Shown piece by piece: positions 4,331 through 26,589 of a stretch of 26,589 nt of DNA. This stretch comes from a virus. Below the pieces are notes generated by a model. That model was not told where the DNA came from and did no database searches. It was given only the letters and a program-made list of their open reading frames with translations. How positions within the stretch are numbered: the stretch's first letter is position 1; each line of letters starts with the position of its first letter. The position numbers were made by a program, and so were the translations under genes. The DNA lies in IMG/VR virus record IMGVR_UViG_3300032242_000427, positions 1 to 26,589 of that record, one strand, 5' to 3'.

Positions 4331-4701
4331 ACATTTGTCTTTTGCCTGATACTCGGAAAATGGCTATAGATGCGATTAACAACGCACCTGACGGCTCGAT
4401 TTTGGAAATACGGGAATCTAATAGGACTAAATCTCAAAACAGGTTCTATTGGGAGTTACTGAGTGCAATAGAAATGCAACTGGTGAACGAGGGCAGGAGA
4501 TATAGAGCAGAAATATGGCACGAATATTTCAAAGCAAGATACCTTGTGCCAAAAATGATGGAATTACCTAATGGTAAACTCAAAGAAGTGGAACGCACCA
4601 CCACAGATTTGTCAAAAAAAGAATTTTCAGATTATATTGAACAGGTCATGGCTTTTGCATCCGAACATGGTGTAATTAACCTAATGGAGCATCCACGATG
4701 A
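4327..4701 (+). CDS. ninB: NinB-like recombination protein
   Basis: This 124-residue protein resembles lambda NinB (Orf), a mediator that helps load recombination proteins on single-stranded DNA coated by SSB. Supporting features are the N-terminal short beta segment, the RESNRTKSQNRFYWELLSAIE block (28-48) that matches the family's conserved R-S-x-x-Q-N-x-x-x-W helix, and WHEYFKARYLVP near residue 59. The C-terminal part contains TTTDLSKKEFSDYIEQV, typical of the family. It overlaps both neighbours by ATGA and lies in a Nin-like group with RusA and a Ref-like nuclease. Confidence 0.8.
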   Translation: MNICLLPDTRKMAIDAINNAPDGSILEIRESNRTKSQNRFYWELLSAIEMQLVNEGRRYRAEIWHEYFKARYLVPKMMELPNGKLKEVERTTTDLSKKEFSDYIEQVMAFASEHGVINLMEHPR

Positions 4702-4970
4702 AAATACCTATACCTTTTTTTGGCTGGTTAGTTATTACAGGAGATGATGATATGACCACTTTTACAACGGAAGATAGAATGATGGCAGAAATTGATTACG
4801 ATTATGCGGGACCACTCCTGCGTTTGAACGCTTTAATAAAAACATATCATCAATTAATGACTAAAAAAGAATTTCAAAAAGCCTTTGAAGTTTCTTGTGT
4901 AATTAAGGACACCGCAGAAGAAGTGGAAGCCGTTACACAAAATTTTGTAAATAATCCTTATGGCTTCTAA
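4698..4970 (+). CDS. Hypothetical protein, 90 aa
   Basis: I do not recognise this protein. The N-terminus (IPIPFFGWLVITG) is hydrophobic but too short for a clear membrane helix. The rest is acidic and helical, with a long helix from about residue 30 to 80. The start at 4698 gives an ATGA overlap with NinB. An internal ATG at 4752 (MTTFTTED) would drop the hydrophobic start and is a possible alternative. The end overlaps the Ref-like gene by 11 bases. Confidence 0.6.
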   Translation: MKIPIPFFGWLVITGDDDMTTFTTEDRMMAEIDYDYAGPLLRLNALIKTYHQLMTKKEFQKAFEVSCVIKDTAEEVEAVTQNFVNNPYGF

Positions 4971-5235
4971 ACTTGAAAAAGAACATTACAAAAAAGTTGC
5001 TGAATTGGGATGCTCATTATGTAGGCATCAAGGCAATGAGGGAACGCCAGCAGAATTGCATCACATTAGACGAGCTGGTAAACGAAGTAATGCCCCTGTT
5101 ATCCCCCTTTGTCCATACCACCATAGAGGATCAAATACCAGTATTCACGGAATGGGTAGAAAGCAATTTGAGCAAACCTATCAAATCACCGAAGAAGAAT
5201 TATTGGTACAAACCGAAAGTTTAATTAATGAGTAG
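4960..5235 (+). CDS. Ref-like HNH nuclease
   Basis: This 91-residue protein matches the small HNH nuclease family typified by phage P1 Ref, a RecA-dependent nuclease that cuts DNA at displacement loops. Visible features are C18-x-x-C21 in GCSLCRH, AELHHIR (33-39) with the catalytic-type His pair, PLCPYHHRG (49-57) with the second Cys and His cluster, and SIHG followed by KQFEQTYQITEEELL, as in Ref. It is short, equal to the nuclease domain alone. It would act with the phage recombination genes encoded nearby. Whether it depends on RecA is inference from the family. Confidence 0.8.
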   Translation: MASKLEKEHYKKVAELGCSLCRHQGNEGTPAELHHIRRAGKRSNAPVIPLCPYHHRGSNTSIHGMGRKQFEQTYQITEEELLVQTESLINE

Positions 5236-5374
5236 TAATTTAATTATCTTGACAGGGATTATTTACGCATATATTTGCGCAGAAAGTTGCTGGAAAGGTA
5301 ATTTTGGATTGGCTTGGATGTATTTTGGCTATGCCGTTGCTAATTACGGAGCCTATTTAATGGCTACAAAATAA
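5228..5374 (+). CDS. Small membrane protein, 48 aa
   Basis: This 48-residue frame starts MSSNLIILTGIIYAYICAES and ends ANYGAYLMATK. It has two hydrophobic segments (about 4-17 and 27-45) separated by a polar Lys/Gly/Asn turn, so a two-pass membrane hairpin is likely. Its start overlaps the end of the Ref-like gene by eight bases. It is the last gene of the rightward block. The general pattern of ILTGIIYAY followed by GNFGLAWMYFGYA looks like a recurrent small phage membrane protein, but no function is known to me. Confidence 0.65.
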   Translation: MSSNLIILTGIIYAYICAESCWKGNFGLAWMYFGYAVANYGAYLMATK

Positions 5375-5385
5375 CAAATTTGTTA
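5372..5385. repeat. 14-base perfect palindrome between convergent genes
   Basis: TAACAAATTTGTTA is a perfect palindrome that includes the stop codon of the 48-residue gene. It lies in the 38-base gap where rightward and leftward transcription meet. The arms are AT-rich with no loop, and no clear T-run follows on either strand, so it is a poor intrinsic terminator and may instead be a protein site. Confidence 0.35.
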
Positions 5386-5412
5386 CTAATAGGTATCAAT
5401 TTTGTCTAGTAA

Positions 5413-5766
5413 TTACAACTCCAAAGGATCAAATCCTAACTCGGTGGCTACCATTTTGCACCTTCTTCTAAATTCTTTACCATGATGCGCCCATTTGTAA
5501 CCTTTTAAGCGGTAAAAACTCATGTGGACACATTCATGGGCTAAGGTAGTTAAAGCGGTATAAAGGTGTCCGCAACGAGCCGATGAAATGGTAATGGTAT
5601 GTTCATAATCTCCTCCTGTATCGTGCATATATGTGCCTAACGCATCTTTGTCATCAGAAATTTCAAATTCAATTTCCTCAGGCAACGGCATTTTCCATTT
5701 AGAAAATGGATAACAACAATAAAGCGTTGAATACAAATTACGGACTATTTCGGGTGTCAATTTCAT
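5413..5766 (-). CDS. SprT-like zinc metalloprotease
   Basis: This 117-residue protein has the SprT-family zinc protease motif HECVH at 77-81 (H77 and H81 as ligands, E78 catalytic), with a third ligand probably H94 or H95 in AHHGKEF. This spacing fits the SprT/Spartan group rather than other zincins. The protein lacks the C-terminal zinc ribbon of longer SprT proteins. Eukaryotic Spartan digests DNA-protein crosslinks; what phage members do is not established. It is the last gene of the late leftward block, downstream of a metallophosphoesterase and the endolysin. Confidence 0.8.
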   Translation of the reverse strand: MKLTPEIVRNLYSTLYCCYPFSKWKMPLPEEIEFEISDDKDALGTYMHDTGGDYEHTITISSARCGHLYTALTTLAHECVHMSFYRLKGYKWAHHGKEFRRRCKMVATELGFDPLEL

Positions 5767-5785
5767 GCCATAATGCCTTTATGCG

Positions 5786-6799
5786 TTAAACGGAATGAAT
5801 TTTTCCTCTAAATTCCACCTCATCTTGTCCGCAGACTTGTACAAGTTCAGGCATAAGTAATCTACCACGATCAAATGTCAAAAGGGCAAAACCTGAACGC
5901 CAATTTTTAGGGTTGTCCTCGGTGTAATCAAGGAATTGGTCACCATTTGGATCGGCTAAGGTGCCTGTTTGGACACCATAACGGGTTCCACCATTTTCAG
6001 AAAAAGCTGGAGAATAATCGGTAAATGGCTGAACGGCTAATACATGGGTATGACCTGTAACAATATTAACTCCGCCTTGCACCGTATTGTTGTGTCCTGC
6101 GGTGTAGCCACCTTTCCATCGGTGTTTTATTACAGTATCGGTATTAATCCAATATGACCAGCAAGGTTTCCACAAAGGGAAATGGTCTTTTAGGGTAAAC
6201 CCTTGCACACCTTCATATTGTCCAATTTGGTTGGATAGGAAGGTTTCAAAACGGGCATCGTGGTTACCCAATGTCCATATTAATTCACCGCCTCTATTAG
6301 CCTTTTCAATGCCTTCTAAGTAGTATTGGCAGGCTTCCAGTTCCTCTTTAATAGTTGGGGCAGAAGCCCACGAAATTCTTGGATGTCTGCTGGCGGTAGT
6401 TCCATCAAAAGCATCGCCGTTGCATACGATTACGGAAGGTTTAAACTCTTTAATGGTTTCCAATAGGGCTTTATAGGCAGTCGTGGTTTCATCGGGGTAA
6501 AAATGGGCATCCGAAAATACAACAACCCTGCCTTTTTCCATCTCCGTTCCCCGCCTTGCATGATGACGAGTTTGCAGGAGTTTGGCTTCTACATTTTCTT
6601 TTAATTTTTTTAAATCTATTTGAGCTTTCGGTTTATTGTCCTTTGTTTCTAGGACTATTCCATTTTTGTGCTCAATATAACGCCTACGGCGCATCACGGA
6701 ACGGGCATCAATACCTAATGCTTTTGCCACCAAAGAAGGAGATTGTAATTCCTGCCAAATCCTAATAAATTCATCTTCGGGACAGGCAGGTAATGTCAT
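5786..6799 (-). CDS. Calcineurin-like metallophosphoesterase with N-terminal HTH
   Basis: The frame opens at 6853, but the ATG at 6799 overlaps the endolysin stop as TAATG and gives 337 residues, which I prefer. The metal-binding motifs of calcineurin-like phosphoesterases appear in order: SDAHF (D97 and H99), NGDAFDG (D129), GNHD (178-181), GH (H236) and GHTH (249-252). Residues about 10-45 look like a helix-turn-helix (SLVAKALGIDARSVMRRRRYI), so the protein may bind DNA or act on nucleic-acid ends. Its substrate is unknown. Its place in the late block next to lysis genes is unusual for a DNA-repair enzyme. Confidence 0.85.
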   Translation of the reverse strand: MTLPACPEDEFIRIWQELQSPSLVAKALGIDARSVMRRRRYIEHKNGIVLETKDNKPKAQIDLKKLKENVEAKLLQTRHHARRGTEMEKGRVVVFSDAHFYPDETTTAYKALLETIKEFKPSVIVCNGDAFDGTTASRHPRISWASAPTIKEELEACQYYLEGIEKANRGGELIWTLGNHDARFETFLSNQIGQYEGVQGFTLKDHFPLWKPCWSYWINTDTVIKHRWKGGYTAGHNNTVQGGVNIVTGHTHVLAVQPFTDYSPAFSENGGTRYGVQTGTLADPNGDQFLDYTEDNPKNWRSGFALLTFDRGRLLMPELVQVCGQDEVEFRGKIHSV

Positions 6800-7335
6800 T
6801 ATTTCACCATATTTAAAGAATCTTGGCGGACTTTTTCTGATCTTGCTATCCAACCATGTCCGTATATAGGATAAGTTTTTAAGCCTTCATAAAAAGTTTC
6901 TTTTGCCATTGTAAATTTTTTAATTACTTCGGCAGGGTCTTGCTGTTGAATCATTTGTAATGTGCGTGGTCCTATAACTCCATCAGGAACGCAACCAATA
7001 GCCTGTTGCAAAATCTTAACCGCACCGCCAGCTCCGTGGTTTACGGCAAAATCAAATAAACAATAATCAAGACCGCTAAGAAGTACATCACAATAAGAAG
7101 GATTCCAATATTTAATTTTATAAAAAGGAGACACTTTTTCGGGCGTTAGGGCTTGCATATCGGCACGGCTGACAGGATGCCCTAAGTATTCCTCCCAAAC
7201 GGCTTGAGTAACCCCTAAATTGGTGCAACCAGCCCTTCCATCGGGTAAATGATTGCCACTATCTCTTGGATCATCTTGAAAACCTGCTTCTTCTCCTAAC
7301 AGCAATCCCAAACTTTTTTGAAAATTATTTAACAT
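6799..7335 (-). CDS. Endolysin, GH108 type with peptidoglycan-binding domain
   Basis: This 178-residue protein resembles glycoside hydrolase family 108 phage lysozymes, which cut the glycan strands of peptidoglycan. The N-terminal catalytic region (1-95) carries LLLGEEAGFQDDPRDSG, where E16 aligns with the family's catalytic Glu in the EGG motif, followed by TNLGVTQ near 38-44. A short insert (about 28-37) separates these two parts. The C-terminal half (95-178) has FDFAVNHG and VPDGVIGPRT, typical of the type 3 peptidoglycan-binding domain. No signal peptide is visible, so export depends on a holin. It overlaps the Rz-like gene by 11 bases. Confidence 0.88.
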   Translation of the reverse strand: MLNNFQKSLGLLLGEEAGFQDDPRDSGNHLPDGRAGCTNLGVTQAVWEEYLGHPVSRADMQALTPEKVSPFYKIKYWNPSYCDVLLSGLDYCLFDFAVNHGAGGAVKILQQAIGCVPDGVIGPRTLQMIQQQDPAEVIKKFTMAKETFYEGLKTYPIYGHGWIARSEKVRQDSLNMVK

Positions 7336-8355: not shown

Positions 8356-9312
8356 TTATAAAATAACCCAACGGCAACCGCTAGGAACTGTTACTGCTTT
8401 ACCTGTTGCTACTGTTATTGGTCCTACTGACATAGCGTTATCGCCACTAGGAATTGTATAACTATTAGATATAGTTTTGCTATTCAAAATTAAACCATTT
8501 GATGCCTGTATTGCTGGTGCGGACATTTCACCCGTAGATGGGTTGATATTAAATGATGTATTGATGTTTTCTGATGTAATAGTTCCACTTGTTGCTGATG
8601 TAAATGGAATATTAAAAGCACTATTTGTAGTGCTGGAAGAAATAGTGATACCTGCGGTAACAGTTGTCCATGAGGTATTTGTTCCATCCGTTGTCAGATA
8701 TTTACCACTATTTCCTGTTTGACTAGGAGCTAAAGCATTAAAAGCGGCATTTGCGGTCGTTTGTCCTGTGCCACCATTAGCTATATTAAGCGTTCCAGCC
8801 AAAGTAATAGCACCAGTAGTGGCTGTGGAAGGAGTTAATCCTGTTGTTCCTGCGGAGAATGTAGTTACACCGCCAGCCGATCCACTTGATGCGGCAGTAA
8901 TCCTGCCTTGTGCATCTACTGTGATATTGGTGTTGGTATAGCTACCTGCGGTTACTGCTGTATTGGCAAGGGCTATTGTTACGGCTGATGAACCATTATA
9001 GGAGCTACCGCTAAGACCTGTTCCAATGGTTAAAGCATTAGCAACACTACCTACACCCGTTACCGAGCTAGGCGCAAGGTTTACCCAATTGGTTCCGTTG
9101 TAGCTCAGTAAATTAGCCGAGGCTGGAGAAGTTAAAGCAACATCGCCTAATGCGGATAAATTGCCAGCTCCGATTTGAACAACAGCAGTCCCGTTGTTAA
9201 TAAATATCTTTTTATCCGCCATATTAACTCCCAATTCACCTGAGGTGAGATTGGAAGTTGTAGGCGTATTGTTAGCGGTATTTGACCGCTTTGGTTTTAT
9301 TACATTAGCCAT
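8356..9312 (-). CDS. Tail fibre-like protein, 318 aa
   Basis: This 318-residue protein has the low-complexity Gly/Ser/Thr/Asn-rich beta sequence of phage tail fibres. It starts with a short basic head (ANVIKPKRSNTANN) typical of fibre N-termini and contains a repeat module near 90-140 (TIGTGLSGSSYNGSSAVTIALANTAVTAGSY, given here in parts). It also contains ANGGTGQTTANAAFNAL, a common fibre linker. The C-terminus has NSYTIPSGDNAMSVGPITV and VPSGCRWVIL, almost the same as the end of the 155-residue protein at 14351-14818. It is the last of the fibre genes in the direction of transcription. Confidence 0.78.
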   Translation of the reverse strand: MANVIKPKRSNTANNTPTTSNLTSGELGVNMADKKIFINNGTAVVQIGAGNLSALGDVALTSPASANLLSYNGTNWVNLAPSSVTGVGSVANALTIGTGLSGSSYNGSSAVTIALANTAVTAGSYTNTNITVDAQGRITAASSGSAGGVTTFSAGTTGLTPSTATTGAITLAGTLNIANGGTGQTTANAAFNALAPSQTGNSGKYLTTDGTNTSWTTVTAGITISSSTTNSAFNIPFTSATSGTITSENINTSFNINPSTGEMSAPAIQASNGLILNSKTISNSYTIPSGDNAMSVGPITVATGKAVTVPSGCRWVIL

Positions 9313-9328
9313 TTGGCATCCCTATATT

Positions 9329-9340
9329 TGCTATATAGCA
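9329..9340. repeat. 12-base palindrome between two fibre genes
   Basis: TGCTATATAGCA is a perfect palindrome in the 38-base gap between the 454- and 318-residue fibre genes, flanked by CCC and GGG that could extend it imperfectly. It may form an RNA hairpin in the leftward message. No T-run follows, so it is not a clear terminator. Confidence 0.3.
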
Positions 9341-9350
9341 GGGTTAAAAA

Positions 9351-10715
9351 TTAGAATGTTCCACCATCCACATTAATTGTATATTGAGAGGCACTTGTAA
9401 TTTGACCTTGTGCATTAACTGCAATTTGCATTGTAGTTGTGCCATCGGTAGTCCCGTATGTTCCTGCGGTAACTGCCGTATTAGCCAAAGCAACAGTAAC
9501 TGCGCTTGATCCGTTATAGCTTGTGCCACTTAAACCAGTTCCGATTGTCAAAGCAAATAGGCTATTTCCTAATGCCACGCCCGAAATGGTCGAATTGGTT
9601 AATCCGCTATTAGGAATGGTTGAATTAATTTGGCTAGGAGCAATACTAATTGATTGTGCAGATAACGCTGTAAGCTGACCTTGTGCGTTTACTGTTGCAC
9701 TTAATGACTGGCTTGCGCTTCCATAAGAACCAGCGGTAACGGCAGTATTTGTAATGCTAAATACTCCGCCTGATAAAGATAAGCCTGTGCCTGCGGTATA
9801 AGTTCCTGCACCGCTAAACTGAGCCCAAGTTACAGGGGTTGTTCCTAATGTGCCTCCCGGATCAACGGTACATACCCAACCAGTATCGGACTGAGTTGTC
9901 CCTTTTTCCACAAATACAAATGCGGAAACCAATTCATTCCATGTTGCCGCATCGGAAGTTCTTGTCCAAACTGTTGTCTGAACATTATAAATACCGTTGG
10001 CAGAAGGGGCGGCTTGGTTTTTTACCAATACTCGGTCTCCAGCCACAACTGTTACTCCGTCAATGGTTTGACCGCCAACCAATGTAATAGTAGTAGTTGT
10101 AGCGGCTACAACGGCAGATTTAACATTCAAGCCTTGTGCAACGCTGTCCACATAATTTTTAGTGGCGGCATCTTGCGCATTAATTGGATCAGATAAAGAG
10201 GTAATTTTGTAATTACCAAAAGAAACATCACCAGTAGGTGCAGATAAGTCGCTAATGGAAGCTACCGCACCTGCTGTGGCACGACCTTTAGCATCTACTG
10301 TAATCTTGGTATAAGTGCCTGCGGTAACGCCTGTATTGGATAATGTGCCTGTTCCAGTTACATTGGATGTTCCGTCAAAAGAACCTGATGTATAAGCAAG
10401 GTCTCCAGTAATGGAAATGGTGCGACCAGTAGCCAAAGCCGTAGCCGTTCCAGCCAAACCTGTAATAGAACCGCTAATAGTGGAGCTAAAGGTTTTTGTT
10501 CCGCCAATAGTCTGAGCAGAGGTTAAATCTACAAATGCGCCATTACCAGCAATAGGAATAATAGAGGTAGCAGAACCGCCTGTGCCACCTGTGCCTGTTC
10601 CGTAATACAGAATATTAGTCTGTTCATTGAACGCCATTTCAGCGTTTGCCAATGAAGAAGGAGCACCAGCACCACCGCCATTAGCCCGTCTTTTGATTCG
10701 TATGGTATTGCTCAT
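9351..10715 (-). CDS. Tail fibre-like protein, 454 aa
   Basis: This is the largest of the fibre-type proteins after the tip protein. It begins with a basic segment (NTIRIKRRANGG) and an AEMAFNEQTNILYYGTGTG block that looks like a fibre attachment domain. It then carries several copies of a module built around T-A-G-S/T-Y followed by V-D/N-A-Q/K-G (near 125-145, 325-350 and 420-445). A central domain at about 180-300 contains INAQDAATKNYVDS and VAGDRVLVKNQ, known from other phage fibres. It ends IDGGTF-like (NVDGGTF), matching the DGGNF end of the neighbouring 104-residue protein. Receptor binding is a likely role. Confidence 0.78.
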   Translation of the reverse strand: MSNTIRIKRRANGGGAGAPSSLANAEMAFNEQTNILYYGTGTGGTGGSATSIIPIAGNGAFVDLTSAQTIGGTKTFSSTISGSITGLAGTATALATGRTISITGDLAYTSGSFDGTSNVTGTGTLSNTGVTAGTYTKITVDAKGRATAGAVASISDLSAPTGDVSFGNYKITSLSDPINAQDAATKNYVDSVAQGLNVKSAVVAATTTTITLVGGQTIDGVTVVAGDRVLVKNQAAPSANGIYNVQTTVWTRTSDAATWNELVSAFVFVEKGTTQSDTGWVCTVDPGGTLGTTPVTWAQFSGAGTYTAGTGLSLSGGVFSITNTAVTAGSYGSASQSLSATVNAQGQLTALSAQSISIAPSQINSTIPNSGLTNSTISGVALGNSLFALTIGTGLSGTSYNGSSAVTVALANTAVTAGTYGTTDGTTTMQIAVNAQGQITSASQYTINVDGGTF

Positions 10716-10724
10716 TTAATGCTC

Positions 10725-11039
10725 CTAAAAGTTTCCGCCATCGGCTATTTCAAGTTGATTTACATTTATCCATTCGTTACTAACAAACATAAGCGCATCA
10801 AAGTTTTGCGCTCCAGTAATAATAACTGGATAACCACCAATATCTGTTCCGCCACTTGGTCCTTGTGGTCCTGCTGGTCCTTGTGGTCCTATTAATCCTC
10901 TGTCAATGGTAACTTCCGTCTTACCGACTGGAGTAACCTCGACATTTATATTATTTTGTTGAGTAACTGATACATCGGTAGCATTAACCGAAACCGCTAT
11001 ATCGTTTACAGTTCCTTTGGTAATGGATAAGGTTGCCAT
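10725..11039 (-). CDS. Small tail protein with collagen-like repeats
   Basis: This 104-residue protein has a beta-rich N-terminal part (1-48) and then a short run of Gly-x-x triplets, GPQGPAGPQGPSG near 51-63, a collagen-like trimerising segment frequent in phage fibres. The C-terminal part ends DGGNF, shared in form with the end of the adjacent 454-residue fibre. It is probably a trimeric connector or short fibre. It lies one base from the next gene in the leftward fibre operon. Confidence 0.72.
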   Translation of the reverse strand: MATLSITKGTVNDIAVSVNATDVSVTQQNNINVEVTPVGKTEVTIDRGLIGPQGPAGPQGPSGGTDIGGYPVIITGAQNFDALMFVSNEWINVNQLEIADGGNF

Positions 11040-11040
11040 A

Positions 11041-11520
11041 TCAATTTACCACTCCATCTGATCTAACAAGATACAAAAGGAAAATAATCGAATCTTGGGC
11101 TGGATTTGAGCCTACGGCAGGAAATCCAACTTTAATGCGACCACTAAATGCAACAGGATTATCGGCTGAAATATTGAGTTGAGGATCAGTAGAAATGACA
11201 TTCCAAGCGGTTTCGTCAATAACTAAGGTAAATAGTCCATTGGCATTATCTCGGTTTGTAATAGTCAAACTTACTGGAGCAGGTTCGGGAACATAATCGG
11301 CAATATCAAAGGACAAGCCATAGCGAGTATCTTGAAGGTTAGATACATTCCTGCGAATAATTTGGGCATTAATGGTGGCTCCTGTTAAATCAACTGGAAC
11401 GCCATTGGAGGAAAATACTAAATTCCAAAAGGTTTTTTGACCATATACTAATTCGCCAGCAATACATGGATTGTCAAATCCGCTGACCTGCGTAATGGTA
11501 TTTTTGCTAAATAATGCCAT
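11041..11520 (-). CDS. Tail/baseplate structural protein, 159 aa
   Basis: This 159-residue protein looks like a beta-sandwich structural domain similar in pattern to the N-terminal domain of baseplate proteins that bind fibres (BppU-like). It contains TFWNLVFSSNGVPVDLTGATINAQIIRR, given here across residues 30-57, and later FTLVIDETAW and FSGRIKVGFP. Such domains often attach receptor-binding proteins to the tail tip. Position within the fibre group agrees. The ribosome site is GGGA before the ATG. The 85-base gap upstream (11521-11605) holds no gene that I can support. Confidence 0.6.
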   Translation of the reverse strand: MALFSKNTITQVSGFDNPCIAGELVYGQKTFWNLVFSSNGVPVDLTGATINAQIIRRNVSNLQDTRYGLSFDIADYVPEPAPVSLTITNRDNANGLFTLVIDETAWNVISTDPQLNISADNPVAFSGRIKVGFPAVGSNPAQDSIIFLLYLVRSDGVVN

Positions 11521-11605
11521 GATTTATCCCAATTCTCGGTTTTCAGCACTAGGCACTCCCAGTAGCCGCTAATCATGTCTTATTTTATGTATTTATTGTA
11601 TCAAA

Positions 11606-11854
11606 TTATCCTACTAAAGCAGTAATTTCCGCATCTGTTAGACCTAATTTAGCTAATTTATCCAATGCGGAAGCCTTTGCATCTTTAGCAATTTGTTCCT
11701 TTTGAGCATCTAAGGCTTGTAATTCAATTAATTTGGCTTGTGCCTGCTCCATATCATAAGGAACTTCCTTTTCATTAGCGTCATAGGCTATATCGCCACG
11801 AATGGTAACAATAGAGGGATTAATAGCAAAAATGGCTGTATATAAATTAATCAT
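11606..11854 (-). CDS. Fibre-associated protein, possible assembly chaperone
   Basis: This 82-residue protein begins [20 protein letters not shown], a pattern I associate with small proteins encoded beside phage tail fibres, followed by DIAYDANEKEVPYD. The second half is a helix rich in Ala, Lys and Gln and ends in LDKLGLT-like (LAKLGLTDAEITALVG). Similar C-terminal ends occur in fibre assembly or chaperone-like proteins. It overlaps the upstream fibre-type gene by ATGA. The chaperone role is inference from position. Confidence 0.6.
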   Translation of the reverse strand: MINLYTAIFAINPSIVTIRGDIAYDANEKEVPYDMEQAQAKLIELQALDAQKEQIAKDAKASALDKLAKLGLTDAEITALVG

Positions 11855-12342
11855 GAAGCTACCTCTAAAATAGTCAAATAGGAATTGGAATTATCTCCTG
11901 TTACCGTTACATATGATCCATAGGAACTTCTAACTTGTATGCTATAAGTTGTTGAGGATGTTGTGGATGGAGAATCTAAATATTGCAAACTTGCCGTAAA
12001 ATAATTTGCTCCTCCTGATACTGTGTAACCTACCGTTGTTGAACCAGTTGTTGTAATAATTGATCCATTCCTTGCGATTCCTAATGACATTCCTTTTGCA
12101 GAGGCATCAACATAACATTCAGGAATCCACGCAATAATTAAAATTTTGCTAGTTGAGCGAGAAGGTGTAATTGTTGCAGAAAGACCAATATTAACAAACG
12201 AAGTGCTATTTGTTTGAAATCCAGTAGTCGCAACTGCACTTAATGCTTGATAAACTTTAGATGCACTAGGTTGAGTTGTAGATGCTGTTCCTGCCTGTGT
12301 AGGAAAAGTAATGCCATTTGTTCCATCTAAAATAATGCTCAT
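11851..12342 (-). CDS. Tail adhesin-like protein, 163 aa
   Basis: This 163-residue protein starts [18 protein letters not shown], a common beginning of phage tail and receptor-binding proteins. The rest (about 35-163) is a single beta-rich domain with [14 protein letters not shown], an [12 protein letters not shown] strand pair and a C-terminal [11 protein letters not shown], as in short adhesin domains on environmental phage tails. It overlaps both neighbours by ATGA. It probably forms a trimer at the fibre tip. Confidence 0.7.
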
Positions 12343-12506
12343 GCTTTCACCTCATCGGCTGGTAATGGAGTTCCACCTTCTGCAAGGAACTTTAAATATT
12401 GCTGATAATCAACATTGTCAGGGTCAAATGGGATGCAAGCACCATCTGTTGTGCGGATTACACAATTTGCAAGTGTACCATCAAAGTTTTTACATAATTT
12501 ATACAT
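12339..12506 (-). CDS. Small fibre-associated protein, 55 aa
   Basis: The open frame reaches a GTG at 12521, but the ATG at 12506 has GGAA eight bases upstream and follows directly on the TAA of the preceding gene, so I prefer 55 residues. The protein begins [11 protein letters not shown] and contains [30 protein letters not shown]. Small proteins with this I-P-F-D-P-x-N-x-D-Y-Q-x-Y-L-x-W/F-L pattern recur between fibre genes of tailed phages. Their role is not known; fibre assembly or a small structural part are both possible. Confidence 0.68.
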
Positions 12507-12507
12507 A

Positions 12508-13608
12508 TTAAAGTTCCGCACTTAGTAATAAAACTCCAGAACCAGTAGCGTCAGAGCCAGCTAAAAAAGTTCCTGAAGCAGGAAGTCCACTAAAACCGCC
12601 TATTGCAATTCTTCCGCCACCAAAAGTTAAGTTTGCCGATGATACTGATGCACTTGAAGCTGTGTAGTTTGCAGAATAATCATTACCTAAAATGAAACTT
12701 CCTGCTGTACTAAAACTTGCTGTCGGAGCAGAACGCATAGTTACTGGGAATGGAAATCTTGCAACAACAGTAGAAGCCCCTGAACTTGCACCACCACCAG
12801 TACTCATTTGGTCTGTAACTGTTCTTGCATAACGCTGACACAATGCCAACTCTTGACCATACTGTCTATATTCAAATCCAGTAGCACTACTTCCTACTTC
12901 TAGTTGAACACCAGTAATGTAGAAGGTTGCTCCGTTTGTTCCAACTACATTAGTTGAGCCAGTTGTTGCAATATACCAAGCACCAGCCCAAGTATTTGCA
13001 GTTCCTTGACGAGTAGAACCTGAACCAAGAGTAAAATATAAATATAACCCTGTAGAATTATCTGTAGCCCAAGTTCCTGTGGTGTCGCCAGCAACAGTAA
13101 CATTTATTGTTGTCCAAGTATTGGCAGAAGAAATTGTGTAACTAAATGGATAAGACCTGTCTTGCGCTCCGTTGCCAATCATTGCTCCAAAAGTTCCAGT
13201 AAGACTTGAATAAACTTGAAAGCTAATTGTTATTGTTTTAGCGTTTGCAGTTCCCCATCCTAAATCGGCAACATTGTAACCTTCAATTTTTTGAGAAATA
13301 TAAAAATAATCTGTTGAAGTTACTGAATAAGCAGACAATGAAGTAGCACCTAAATATTTAGTAAAGCCTACTGGCGGTGTTACAGAACCAGCATTTTGTT
13401 GAACGCTAAATTTAGATGCTTGAGCGGAATATGTTTGAAATCTATCTAAAGTATATGTTCCATTAACTGCCGTAACACTAGCACCAGCATTTCTTTGGTC
13501 AATAACCATCGCACCATTAATAATACGATTACGCATTACAGAGCTAATAGGTCTTAATACTCCACCATTTGAATCGGAGATATTATCGCCACCATAAGTA
13601 ATAGACAT
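12508..13608 (-). CDS. Receptor-binding/fibre protein, 366 aa
   Basis: This 366-residue protein belongs to a recurrent phage tail type with [16 protein letters not shown] near residue 27, [11 protein letters not shown] next to it, a large beta-sandwich resembling a carbohydrate-binding fold (about 65-235), the signature [18 protein letters not shown] near 230-248 and then [12 protein letters not shown]. The C-terminal 100 residues are a separate beta-rich domain likely to bind the receptor. It joins the upstream 58-residue gene by TAATG. A sugar ligand is likely for this fold but not shown. Confidence 0.78.
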
Positions 13609-13784
13609 TATTTAATCTCCGCTAATTGAGCATCAGTAGGCTTGGCTAATGTAGGATGTTCCCATTTAGCAATATAATCGCCTTTGCCGTCTGAATCGTT
13701 TTGTAAAAGGATGGTTCCTTTAAAATCAAAATCTGAATCAGATAAAGAAGGATAAATTGCTTTGATTTTGTCGTATAAAGTCAT
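13608..13784 (-). CDS. Small fibre-associated protein, 58 aa
   Basis: This 58-residue frame starts MTLYDKIKAIYPSLSDSDFD and ends TDAQLAEIK. It joins both neighbours exactly by TAATG, so it is almost certainly translated. The motif TILLQNDSDGKGDYIAKWEHPTLAKP, in two parts here (TILLQNDSDGKGDYI and AKWEHPTLAKPT), is one I associate with small proteins next to tail fibres in many phages. It may be a fibre chaperone or a minor structural part; I cannot tell. Confidence 0.75.
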   Translation of the reverse strand: MTLYDKIKAIYPSLSDSDFDFKGTILLQNDSDGKGDYIAKWEHPTLAKPTDAQLAEIK

Positions 13785-14341
13785 TATGATGCCCTTATTA
13801 AAGAACCATTAAACCAAGTAACATACGGAGCTGGTGTATTTGCAACAATATTTTGTGTTCCAGCACTTGTATAACACCAAATTTCAAAATAATCTGTTGT
13901 TCCGTTTGCTTGAACCATAGCAGAAATACCAGTAGAAGTGCTTGCTCCGCTTCCACCACCTATAGAATTACCTCTTAAAAATTCAGAACCATTTTTGTAA
14001 ATTTTTATTTGATAAAGTCCTGCTGAGGAATTAGCAAAATATGTAGAAGCATTAAATTGATAATATCCAGCAACAGTTGGAGTAAATCTATAATTTGATG
14101 TGCTCCAATTATTATTTGTATCATACAAAACACCATCAAAAGCTACTTTAGTATTGGTGTTATTGCTTATAGATTGATTTGAATTAGCCAAAACAACACT
14201 AAACGCTGGCATATTACCGCTAACCATAGCGGTTCCAGTAACATCGGGGAATGTGCAAACCTGATTACTATTTGTATTAGGTGCAAGCAGGGTCATAGAA
14301 CCTGTGCCACTTGCTCCGCCTGATGGAATTATTGAACTCAT
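13784..14341 (-). CDS. Fibre protein with C1q/TNF-like domain
   Basis: This 185-residue protein has a short N-terminal region (1-45) with SGGASGTGSMTLLAPNTNSNQ, a usual fibre motif, followed by a C1q-like trimeric jelly roll (about 46-185). The C1q signs are PAFSVVLANSNQSI, VAFDGVLYDTNNNW, YRFTPTVAGYYQFNASTYF and the closing VTWFNGSLIRAS. Such domains bind receptors at fibre tips. AAGGA precedes the ATG. The gene joins the 58-residue gene downstream by TAATG. Confidence 0.78.
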   Translation of the reverse strand: MSSIIPSGGASGTGSMTLLAPNTNSNQVCTFPDVTGTAMVSGNMPAFSVVLANSNQSISNNTNTKVAFDGVLYDTNNNWSTSNYRFTPTVAGYYQFNASTYFANSSAGLYQIKIYKNGSEFLRGNSIGGGSGASTSTGISAMVQANGTTDYFEIWCYTSAGTQNIVANTPAPYVTWFNGSLIRAS

Positions 14342-14350
14342 CTTTTATCC

Positions 14351-14818
14351 TTATGAAATTACCCAACGCTGACCATTAGGAACTGTAACCGATACGCCTG
14401 TATTAATGGTTATAGGACCTACTGATGCCGCATTTTTACCTACTGGAAAAGTGTAATTAGTTGTTACAGTTACGCTATTTTCCACAAAAACCTGATCTCC
14501 GCCACCACCTGTTGCTCCACCGCCAACGGATGTCCAAGTTGAGCCATTATAGCCTTCCCATTGTGCAATATCAGTATTAAATCGGAAATATCCAGCTAAA
14601 GGAGCAGAATCCCGTTGTGCCGTTGTGCCAGTAGGAATGACCTCTGAACCCGTCAAAGAGGTCAATACGCCTAAATCTACTAAAGCTCCAACCGCAGAAT
14701 TTGCTCCTGTTCCACCATTAGCAATAGGCACAGTATTTGCCAAAGCAACGGAAGCATTAAGATGCCCTGTGGAATCAACATAATTAGCCAGTTGTGAAAG
14801 GTTAAATGCTTGCGTCAT
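14351..14818 (-). CDS. Short tail fibre protein, 155 aa
   Basis: This 155-residue protein has a fibre-type head (QLANYVDSTGHLNASVALA), the linker ANGGTGANSAVGALVDLGV, then RDSAPLAGYFRFNTDIAQWEGYNGSTW, a module widespread in phage fibres. The C-terminus (about 120-155) has NYTFPVGKNAASVGPITI and VPNGQRWVIS, which closely repeats the end of the 318-residue fibre at 8356-9312. It overlaps the tip-protein stop by ATGA and is the first fibre gene after it. Confidence 0.75.
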   Translation of the reverse strand: MTQAFNLSQLANYVDSTGHLNASVALANTVPIANGGTGANSAVGALVDLGVLTSLTGSEVIPTGTTAQRDSAPLAGYFRFNTDIAQWEGYNGSTWTSVGGGATGGGGDQVFVENSVTVTTNYTFPVGKNAASVGPITINTGVSVTVPNGQRWVIS

Positions 14819-23724: not shown

Positions 23725-24138
23725 TTATGTTGGAATGTCTAAGGTGCAATCCATCACTATCTGTTGCAATCCTACAGTATTATCGTATGTATTGTAAAGC
23801 ATTACTACATCAGCCTTTGCAATATAAAAGCCACTTGAACCGCCAAATTGCCCATTATATCCATGCAAAGATTGTATTATGGAATTGCCAATACTGAAAG
23901 CATCATTCATATTTTGGCAAAAAATGCTAATTTGAAATATAGGGCGATCAATGCCCTTATTATTTTGATTAACACCTGTATAAACGGGTTGGTGGACATT
24001 TCGTAAGTTCCACACCACAAATTTAGGCTCTGATGCAAAATTCCTGTTGAAATTAGCGTAAACAGGAACTGGGTTTACTATACTTTTAAGCTGATATTGA
24101 ATAGCTTTTGCATAATTGACAATATTGTTTTGGCTCAT
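23725..24138 (-). CDS. Tail terminator-like protein (DUF3168-like)
   Basis: This 137-residue protein lies just before the major tail gene and shows the tail-terminator pattern: an N-terminal helix, then FRP-like RPIFQISIFCQNMNDAFSIGNSIIQSLHGYNG (about 65-96) and a final beta part ending VGLQQIVMDCTLDIPT. This resembles DUF3168/lambda gpU-type proteins, which form the hexamer that ends the tail tube and joins it to the head. It overlaps the head-closure gene by ATGA. Confidence 0.72.
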   Translation of the reverse strand: MSQNNIVNYAKAIQYQLKSIVNPVPVYANFNRNFASEPKFVVWNLRNVHQPVYTGVNQNNKGIDRPIFQISIFCQNMNDAFSIGNSIIQSLHGYNGQFGGSSGFYIAKADVVMLYNTYDNTVGLQQIVMDCTLDIPT

Positions 24139-24479
24139 ACTGGCACCACAGGATCATTACGATAGCAAAGGAATGTAATATTCATTTTATCGTTGCTTTC
24201 AAAGCAATCGGTAATACGCCAATCTTTAGCTCGGTATGTAATACTATATAACTGCTGATTATCAACCATTTGTCTTGTCCAAGGCGTGTAATTCATGGTT
24301 AATTTGACTAAATCGGTATATACACGGGTATCCTTGTTGATTTGTAGCCCATTATGGACATCCTGCACCCTTGCCCGTGTGGTAAACCATTTGGACAAAG
24401 TGGTGGTGTATTGACCTAAATCATCAACAGAATTGGTTACATTATTAACATCAACCTGCTCATACCGTGCAATAGCCAT
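24135..24479 (-). CDS. Head closure (head-tail joining) protein
   Basis: This 114-residue protein matches the small beta-barrel head-tail adaptor family (SPP1 gp16 / HK97 gp7-like). Supporting parts are DDLGQYTTTLSKWFTTRARVQDV near 19-41, the middle VKLTMNYTPW and the C-terminal IITYRAKDWRI-like SITYRAKDWRITDCFES. It sits between the connector and the tail terminator, as expected for a head closure ring. Junctions with both neighbours are tight (ATGA upstream to the terminator gene, adjacent stop and start with the connector). Confidence 0.75.
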   Translation of the reverse strand: MAIARYEQVDVNNVTNSVDDLGQYTTTLSKWFTTRARVQDVHNGLQINKDTRVYTDLVKLTMNYTPWTRQMVDNQQLYSITYRAKDWRITDCFESNDKMNITFLCYRNDPVVPV

Positions 24480-25148
24480 TTACATCACCAATGGTTTGTA
24501 TGGGCGTAAAAGTTGATCCACCCCGTATGGAATATTAGCCAATTTGCCGTTAAACGAATTGGAGCGGTTGTTATACAAGTGGGTTAATAAAAGGAGACCA
24601 GCTTGTTTAATTACTGGATATTGGGCAATAGGATTGGCGTTACAGGTATATGTGCAAACAATAGGGCTGGTCATAATCTGACTAGCGGAATCAGGAATAC
24701 CTGATACGATTACCTTATTACCCGTAGGATCATAATAATAGTTTGCAGATGCAATAATTGTATAGACGGGAGGAGTGGCTCCTGAATAATATGCCACTTC
24801 CTTAACCACTACTCCAGCTTGACCTTGAAAGGCTTGGCTTACCTCAGGTAAATCAAGGCTCATTTGTGTGCCTGTCATGCCGTTAAAAGTGCCGTAATAG
24901 ACCTTATATGTAGTTGGGAATATGGACATACCAAGATAGTCCTCAATCGCCATACGGGTCGCCAATTCAAGTCCTTGTAGGTATGAATCTTGGCTTTGAT
25001 CCTCAAACAAGTTTAATTGCTGAGTTATCTCATCAAGAGATAGCCAAGCCGTTTGTAAATCACGGCTTACCTGTTCAATTTTGTCATAGCTGTACGGATT
25101 ACGAGTAGTCCCTAAAAAAGGACCATTTGTAAGACTATCTAATGGCAT
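24480..25148 (-). CDS. Head-tail connector protein (gp6-like)
   Basis: This 222-residue protein resembles the HK97 gp6-like adaptor that forms a ring below the portal. It shows an N-terminal helical part with SLDEITQQLNLFEDQSQDSYL (about 37-57), the following LATRMAIEDYLGMSIFPTTY, a beta region, and a C-terminal PVIKQAGLLLLTHLYNNRSN with IPYGVDQLLRPYKPL. These last motifs are very typical of the family. It lies directly after the capsid gene. Confidence 0.85.
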   Translation of the reverse strand: MPLDSLTNGPFLGTTRNPYSYDKIEQVSRDLQTAWLSLDEITQQLNLFEDQSQDSYLQGLELATRMAIEDYLGMSIFPTTYKVYYGTFNGMTGTQMSLDLPEVSQAFQGQAGVVVKEVAYYSGATPPVYTIIASANYYYDPTGNKVIVSGIPDSASQIMTSPIVCTYTCNANPIAQYPVIKQAGLLLLTHLYNNRSNSFNGKLANIPYGVDQLLRPYKPLVM

Positions 25149-25149
25149 A

Positions 25150-26193
25150 TTAGCCTACCAATCTAACGCCTGCAAACACATCCCGAATGGTGGAAACAAC
25201 CCGTTTTTCACAGAATAATGTCATAAATCCAGGGTTTGTTTGTTCAAACGCTTGAATTTTCATTATTTCGTTGTCCGCAATGGTAACAAAACGATTCCAT
25301 GCACATAAATAAACTGGATTATTTCCTGCTCCTGCAACTTCCATATATGGGTTAGGAATAACTGGGAAACCAAAAATGCGAGTTACAGAACCACCATCCA
25401 TATCTCCAACCTCAAGGAATACTGGCAAACCTGAGCCTGTGCCTGTTAATTCACGGAGATTTTTAATTGTTGTTGGGTGCATCATCCAAGCGGTAGATGG
25501 ATCAGTCCAATATTGAGCTGGTAAAGCAGAAGCAAGATTTCCAATATCGTTATAGGAAACCGCACTAGCAGAGCCTTGTTGTACTTCCAACACGGTATGT
25601 AAACCATTAGTCATAGCTGGACCATTGGTGCCAAAAGCGGCGGCAGTTGTTGAGCCAGCATAAGAATTTAAACCACGCAAGCCCAAAGTGGCACCAGTTT
25701 GTACCGTTGTAGAACCAGCTTGGTCGTTGTTAAACATCATGGAAAGAGCTTCTTGTTGTGCAAATTCCAACATAATGTCGCCCACGATTGCTTCATTGAT
25801 ATTATTAATATCCGACATAACTGCGGTACGAATTGGCACCACAGCGTTTATATCACGGACAGGTAATTGCCAAAAGGAAGTAGCAATACCATTAACCGAA
25901 TTATTACTATTAATTGGATAACCCCACGGGTTATTTGTTCCATTTTGAATGTTGGTGACATCACCAGTTTTAACTACAAAGGCTTCATCTGAGCCAATGG
26001 TGGTAATAACTCTCGCACCAGCATTACGAATTGGGTTGTTTTGACGCAAACTTGCAAAAGCATCGTCATAAATAACACGACCACCAACTCCTGAACCAGA
26101 GCCAGTAAGAGCAGAGCCAGTTTCATTTAAGTTTACTGTAGCTTCACCCTCTTTAAGGGCGGTTTGGATTGCTTCAAGAATTAAATTTGCCAT
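25150..26193 (-). CDS. Major capsid protein, HK97-fold type
   Basis: This 347-residue protein looks like a capsid subunit of the HK97 fold without a long N-terminal scaffold (delta) domain. Features include VRDINAVVPIRTAVMSDI near 112-129, NINEAIVGDIMLEFAQQEALSMMFNND, the A-domain-like MHPTTIKNLRELTG, then GLPVFLEVGDMDGG, IFGFPVIPNPYM and the C-terminal PGFMTLFCEKRVVSTIRDVFAGVR. No protease motif is present. Its C-terminal third is clearly related to the partial protein encoded just upstream. GGAA precedes the ATG. Confidence 0.85.
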   Translation of the reverse strand: MANLILEAIQTALKEGEATVNLNETGSALTGSGSGVGGRVIYDDAFASLRQNNPIRNAGARVITTIGSDEAFVVKTGDVTNIQNGTNNPWGYPINSNNSVNGIATSFWQLPVRDINAVVPIRTAVMSDINNINEAIVGDIMLEFAQQEALSMMFNNDQAGSTTVQTGATLGLRGLNSYAGSTTAAAFGTNGPAMTNGLHTVLEVQQGSASAVSYNDIGNLASALPAQYWTDPSTAWMMHPTTIKNLRELTGTGSGLPVFLEVGDMDGGSVTRIFGFPVIPNPYMEVAGAGNNPVYLCAWNRFVTIADNEIMKIQAFEQTNPGFMTLFCEKRVVSTIRDVFAGVRLVG

Positions 26194-26213
26194 GATATTC
26201 CAAATAAAAAATT

Positions 26214-26239
26214 AAAAAGAGGGGAGGGGTTGCCTCCCC
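26214..26239 (-). terminator. Rho-independent terminator between two capsid-type genes
   Basis: On the minus strand GGGGAGG (26239-26233), a five-base loop CAACC and CCTCCCC (26227-26221) form a seven-pair GC-rich hairpin, followed by TCTTTTT and then more A/T. This is a textbook intrinsic terminator for leftward transcription. It starts eight bases after the upstream capsid-like stop and ends about 20 bases before the major capsid ATG. Confidence 0.85.
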
Positions 26240-26246
26240 CGCTTTC

Positions 26247-26589
26247 TTAGGTTGCTGTACCAGTTGAACGGTAACGGATTGCGCTGAAAGGATCAACTAC
26301 TGATGTTGCCAAACGCTTTTCACCAAAGAAGGTGATGAAGCCTGGCAATGTCTGATCATAACGGCGTAATACCATATTTAAACGATCAACGATTGTGTGG
26401 AAACGAGGCCAATCTCCAAAATACATTGGATATAGGCTGGTTGTTCCAGCAGTACCAGTTGTGGTTTGATATGGTTGGTCAAGATACTTATTAACCACTA
26501 CATCAAAACCAGCAATACGACCAACAATACCTTCATAGACCAATGGATCCATTCTTTCGAAAATTGGTGTGCCATTTGTATCTACCAAG
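26247..26589 (-). CDS. Second capsid-type protein, C-terminal part (partial)
   Basis: Only the last 113 or so residues are inside the window; the frame is open to the right edge, so the start lies outside. The sequence aligns with the end of the neighbouring capsid protein: GTPIFERMDP with GLPVFLEVGD, IAGFDVVVNKY with IFGFPVIPNPY, and PGFITFFGEKRLATSVVDPFSAIR with PGFMTLFCEKRVVSTIRDVFAGVR. It is therefore a second HK97-type subunit and not a duplicate copy, since identity is moderate. It is followed by a strong terminator, as is common after highly expressed capsid genes. Confidence 0.82.
   Translation of the reverse strand, partial: LVDTNGTPIFERMDPLVYEGIVGRIAGFDVVVNKYLDQPYQTTTGTAGTTSLYPMYFGDWPRFHTIVDRLNMVLRRYDQTLPGFITFFGEKRLATSVVDPFSAIRYRSTGTAT

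Follow-up and report, generated by a model that had tools for sequence, protein, structure and literature searches.

The window analysed here is one entire IMG/VR virus contig of 26,589 nucleotides. Two adjacent genes for HK97-type capsid proteins, named MCP1 and MCP2, lie at its right-hand end together with the following features.

24135..24479, minus strand: possible head-completion protein (PF05521, E = 7e-4, under the curated cut-off)
24480..25148, minus strand: gp6-like head-tail connector, directly downstream of MCP2 (PF05135, E = 2e-4; phrog_442, E = 1e-10)
25150..26193, minus strand: MCP2, complete HK97-fold capsid protein of 347 aa (PF05065, TIGR01554, AlphaFold model)
26122..26193, minus strand: MCP2 residues 1-24, remnant of a delta region ending at Glu24 (invariant Glu; prohead I alignment)
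26206..26240, minus strand: terminator-like hairpin (GGGGGAGG-CAACC-CCTCCCCT) with a T-rich tail, in the MCP1-MCP2 intergenic spacer (pairing, fold, conservation)
26247..26589 (ORF to 26588), minus strand: C-terminus only of MCP1, 113 aa, the gene being cut by the contig end (PF05065)

MCP2 matched most of the Phage_capsid domain PF05065 (E = 3e-17, 63.3 bits) and positions 126-374 of the 385 in TIGR01554 (E = 5e-18, 65.3 bits). The MCP1 fragment matched PF05065 at profile positions 181-275 (E = 1e-9). When MCP2 was compared with the rest of the window by BLAST, the MCP1 fragment was found at 41% identity over 91 aa (E = 2e-13), and the likeness is thus far above chance. An earlier note on this DNA had described two adjacent, diverged HK97-type capsid genes, and our searches confirm this description, including the extent of both reading frames and the motifs that MCP2 shares with the fragment. 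A separate run of ORFs after the gpJ-like gene (window 8356-14818), in which 'ALTIGTGLSG', 'NTAVTAGSY' and similar motifs recur, is repeat-rich and tail-fibre-like.

The earlier note also proposed extending the sequence rightwards, and relatives made this possible. Complete copies of MCP1 (~450 aa) are known from them, encoded immediately after an S78 prohead protease (PF04586 Peptidase_S78, E = 8e-10). The closest relative with a complete MCP1 is L083, in which the C-terminus of this protein is 96% identical to that in the window. Its 453 aa matched positions 10-377 of 385 in TIGR01554 (E = 1e-25, 90.3 bits) and PF05065 at 87.9 bits, so both genes of the pair clear the curated cut-offs (24.2 bits for PF05065, 27.5 bits for TIGR01554). 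The partner gene is a capsid protein over its full length, and this TIGR01554 match rules out a likeness confined to the C-terminus of a protein of another kind. In a profile-profile comparison of MCP1 and MCP2, 315 columns were aligned with 100% probability and 40% identity.

The structure of both proteins was predicted, as the earlier note had suggested, with success for MCP2 alone. The AlphaFold model of MCP2 (pLDDT 73.7) has the HK97 fold. Its best match in the PDB was the RcGTA capsid (Z = 22.9, 254 residues, 3.5 Å); HK97 (Z = 16-18; 18.1 for prohead I) and the Family 2B encapsulin fold (Z = 15.8) also matched. Because the model of MCP1 was poor (pLDDT 50), its fold was taken from the profile alignment; the modelled N-terminus is, at low confidence, mostly helical and begins with a long helix. 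In L081 (995-2323) and L082 (5686-7014), the MCP2 ORF is extended at its N-terminus by about 95 residues (MPKPTDAMKAEARRGLEWRKEFG...), a stretch that is absent from other MCP2s; the PF05065 match begins there only at residue 146.

The gene order of a relative, L100, is large terminase, portal, protease (270 aa), MCP1 (453 aa), MCP2 (349 aa) and connector. An ORF of 156 aa lies ahead of the large terminase, in the position of a putative small terminase. The portal and terminase of relatives matched their families in the profile search. The locus carries features of an HK97-type head module, namely an S78 protease gene upstream and an N-terminal delta region on MCP1.

We gathered several hundred loci, taking the best 80 matches per scan, so that the sample covers the nearer phages. 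Both genes were found in 343 of the 362 loci that had either, and the remaining 19 run into contig ends. Some of these loci overlap on one and the same contig; therefore, the 222 distinct complete pairs are the safer count. In all of them (222/222), the genes share a strand and follow the order protease-MCP1-MCP2-connector, with a median gap of 56 nt between the capsid genes. The use of MCP2 as a query does not explain the pairing, because three scans were queried with MCP1 alone, and MCP2 was recovered whenever the contig had room. An assembly artefact at the contig end is ruled out, since the isolate P19250A and all 222 distinct pairs have the same layout.

The carriers of the pair are a widespread group of freshwater tailed phages. 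All matches in the bacterial and archaeal genome collections were contigs of metagenome-assembled genomes, mostly labelled proteobacteria. A search of plasmids found no relative, and a search of the open-access literature found no paper on the MCP1-MCP2 gene pair.

In a few phages, free-standing homing endonuclease genes separate MCP1 from MCP2, and both capsid genes are kept wherever the contig continues. An HNH gene lies in L171 (2096-2422), and the identical ORF is found in L170 (6363-6689). The L170 contig stops after this inserted gene; in its sibling L171, the same gene precedes MCP2. A homing endonuclease of phrog_314 lies in the gap in L096 (5704-6246) and L263 (2197-2889), with a similar ORF in L293 (4324-4956). 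In another record of 75,987 b, IMGVR_UViG_3300022748_000017, about 38 kb separate a match to MCP2 from one to MCP1 (loci L250 and L351). This record may hold a 38-kb genome in two tandem copies, or two joined phages.

We built a tree from 116 MCP1 and 116 MCP2 sequences. One edge (length 0.84, support 1.0) parts all MCP1 from all MCP2 sequences. The tree length is 18.3 for MCP2 and 11.4 for MCP1, which shows that MCP2 is the more diverged. Codon models of 36 pairs gave omega values of 0.129 for MCP1 and 0.122 for MCP2, which are approximate averages on a saturated tree. By this measure, both genes are under strong purifying selection. The single edge and the low omega values indicate that the duplication is older than all sampled phages and that both copies have been kept by selection. 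When the tree was rooted with a Streptococcus phage capsid protein, the root fell between MCP1 and MCP2, with weak support (0.45) on the MCP1 side and a long outgroup branch. The stronger matches of MCP1 to RcGTA and to the family models only suggest that it may be nearer to the ancestor. The distances within MCP1 and MCP2 were correlated (r = 0.65), but not above the correlation found for neighbouring head genes, so this value is no special sign of direct co-evolution between the two proteins.

These results bear on the second half of the earlier note, which had read the pair either as a mixed capsid with a major and a minor or pentamer subunit, or as one new copy that is taking over. A redundant recent duplicate, or replacement of one copy by the other, finds nothing in its favour beyond the adjacency of the genes. 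The split predates the diversification of every sampled phage, both genes are constrained, and neither was seen alone except at contig ends. The tree, the constraint and the universal pairing refute this explanation, which we regard as extremely improbable. The two-paralogue reading is supported by the fixed co-occurrence and the purifying selection, and also by the loss of the scaffold in one copy and the hairpin between the genes, which are described below. The scaffold asymmetry, the invariant Glu common to both proteins and the terminator-like hairpin go beyond what the earlier note had described.

MCP1 has an N-terminal delta or scaffold region of about 106 residues, of which MCP2 keeps only about 24. 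Accordingly, the matches to TIGR01554 start at position 10 for MCP1 and at position 126 for MCP2. The delta domain of HK97 is made up of the first 103 residues. In the alignment of the MCP2 model with HK97 prohead I, residue 1 of MCP2 pairs with residue 77 of the chain. Since this alignment starts inside the delta domain, MCP2 retains only the end of the region.

At the boundary between the scaffold and the shell domain, Glu106 is present in 116/116 MCP1s and the equivalent Glu24 in 116/116 MCP2s (232/232 together). In MCP2, a hydrophobic residue stands two positions before Glu24, and Ala-Ser usually follows it. This Glu is a probable cleavage site of the prohead protease. The prohead proteases of T4, phiKZ and SPN3US all cut after Glu (PMC5694885). 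Cleavage at these positions is predicted to give products of about 347 residues for MCP1 (in L083) and 323 residues for MCP2 of the window.

The hairpin in the window has 8 pairs, 6 of them GC, followed by CTTTTTAATT. Its predicted folding energy is -17.3 kcal/mol; compared with shuffled versions of this GC-rich sequence, the z-score is -1.8. Among the 184 distinct regions that follow MCP1, 178 contain a stable hairpin and a T-rich tail behind it, and the hairpins of these regions comprise 138 different sequences. We also counted hairpins with a stricter rule for the tail. Under this rule, a terminator-like hairpin was found in 85% of the regions after MCP1, 3% after MCP2, 2% after the connector and 0% after the terminase, portal and protease, with 2% for both random 75-mers and shuffles. 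Among the head genes tested, the hairpin after MCP1 is the sole recurrent terminator-like element. With its GC-rich stem and U tract, it has the features of an intrinsic terminator and may be regarded as a putative one.

The position of the hairpin suggests that MCP2 may be made together with low-copy genes. However, the hairpin is not proof of a lower dose of MCP2, because every downstream gene would be affected. The predicted strength of ribosome binding differed only slightly between MCP1 and MCP2 and gave no clear argument on dosage. It is also possible, though rather unlikely, that the hairpin is an mRNA-stabilising end or an operon punctuation after a highly expressed MCP1, which would make it uninformative on MCP2; this explanation competes with the dosage step only. 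Terminators follow phage major capsid genes elsewhere, and in a few members the hairpin stands without a T run, as this explanation would allow. However, the T-rich tails found under the strict rule are as expected for intrinsic termination, and MCP2 lies downstream of the hairpin in every case.

Phage T4 offers the closest comparison for the arrangement, as it also has two HK97-fold paralogues with a long and a short N-terminal propeptide region. The prohead protease of T4 cuts after Glu and in this way removes the propeptides of gp23 (65 aa) and gp24 (10 aa) (PMC9958956, PMC5694885). The pentamers consist of gp24, which is probably the product of a gp23 duplication (PMC9958956). T4 is, according to PMC12407261, the single virus with two HK97-fold proteins in separate roles. 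However, the head of T4 is large and prolate, its scaffold core is separate, and its gp23 and gp24 are only 17-20% identical, whereas the phages here have genomes of about 37-40 kb, a built-in delta-type scaffold, an S78 protease and capsid proteins of about 40% identity. Among the matches listed in Pfam, PHROGs and NCBIfam there was no gp23 or gp24 model; only PF05065, phrog_10/phrog_15928 and TIGR01554 were found. On these matches, MCP1 and MCP2 were not assigned to the gp23/gp24 sequence family.

Among the matches listed from the phage collection, the pair occurred in a single record, P19250A (KX815270), a cultured Methylophilaceae phage of the LD28 clade. It has the identical gene order and both genes, as follows.

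P19250A, 4600-5988: MCP1, annotated as 'gene transfer agent capsid protein'
P19250A, 6066-7124: MCP2, annotated as 'hypothetical protein', 54% identical to MCP2 of the window

The OM43 phage Venkman (L155, MT375522) has been described as a relative of P19250A with synteny. Its head module, however, is unrelated, with a single annotated capsid gene and a scaffolding gene apart from it. The nearest solved folds to MCP2, the RcGTA capsid and HK97 gp5, come from systems with a single major capsid protein each, unlike the pair here.

Family 2B encapsulins, such as Enc1 and Enc2 of Streptomyces lydicus, also consist of two adjacent HK97-fold paralogues that form one shell (PMC12407261). In bacteria they serve as cargo compartments; they carry cNMP-binding domains, and the two proteins tile the shell at random (PMC12407261). 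They lack the phage scaffold, protease and head-gene neighbours. At the present locus, we found no cNMP-binding insertion and no cargo-enzyme operon; PF05065 is the sole domain, and the neighbours are terminase, portal, protease and connector.

Taken together, we consider it probable that these phages have a two-subunit head in which MCP1 is the main protein and MCP2 a minor one, made in smaller amounts and most likely placed at the vertices like gp24 of T4. Such siphovirus heads would be built from two HK97-fold paralogues that originated in an old duplication. MCP1, made at a high level, would form most of the shell with its own delta scaffold of about 106 residues. The prohead protease encoded just upstream would then trim it, probably after Glu106. 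MCP2 would be a derived copy that has lost nearly all of the scaffold, and the roughly 24 residues left would probably be trimmed at Glu24. The hairpin between the genes may cause less MCP2 to be made, and MCP2 would co-assemble with MCP1 into the virion as a minor shell subunit. By analogy with gp24, the pentameric vertices are the most likely single position of MCP2; this would correspond to about 55 copies of MCP2 and 360 of MCP1 if T = 7.

Alternatively, MCP2 could be a shell subunit that is not specific to vertices and is mixed with MCP1 in hexamers or in both types of capsomer. The identity of about 40% between the two proteins, closer than that of gp23 and gp24 (PMC9958956, PMC12407261), and the many conserved fold residues they have in common would permit such mixing, and the random co-assembly of the Family 2B paralogues is a precedent (PMC12407261). 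However, MCP1 and MCP2 differ consistently in the scaffold, in the length of the E-loop and in several loops of the shell domain, and the hairpin suggests unequal dosage. A defined minor position fits these differences better than random mixing, which we think unlikely.

It is still less probable that MCP2 acts outside the capsid lattice, as an internal, assembly or size-determination factor or as an alternative encapsulin-like shell. Such a role would agree with the absence of a delta scaffold, with the short N-terminal helix that aligns with the N-terminus of encapsulins, and with the position of MCP2 beyond the hairpin, among the connector genes. Yet the HK97 fold is kept over most of MCP2, and most of the conserved capsid residues are common to MCP2 and MCP1. 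A minor shell subunit therefore remains the reading that we prefer. A more specific proposal is plausible, though short of probable: that these phages have a fixed two-paralogue capsid independent of T4, with a scaffold-less copy at the vertices and a ratio set by the intergenic terminator.

A head with a major and a minor protein is proven for T4, but not for small phages of the present kind. The MCP2 gene has been overlooked, as it is called a 'hypothetical protein' in P19250A, the only cultured relative. Should MCP2 prove to be a subunit of the shell or of its vertices, these small phages would be a second case, independent of that in T4, and would offer hundreds of natural sequence pairs separated by many different distances. 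It could then be asked how a single HK97 protein gives rise to separate specialists for hexamers and pentamers, and whether a delta-less subunit can be directed into a scaffold-built shell.
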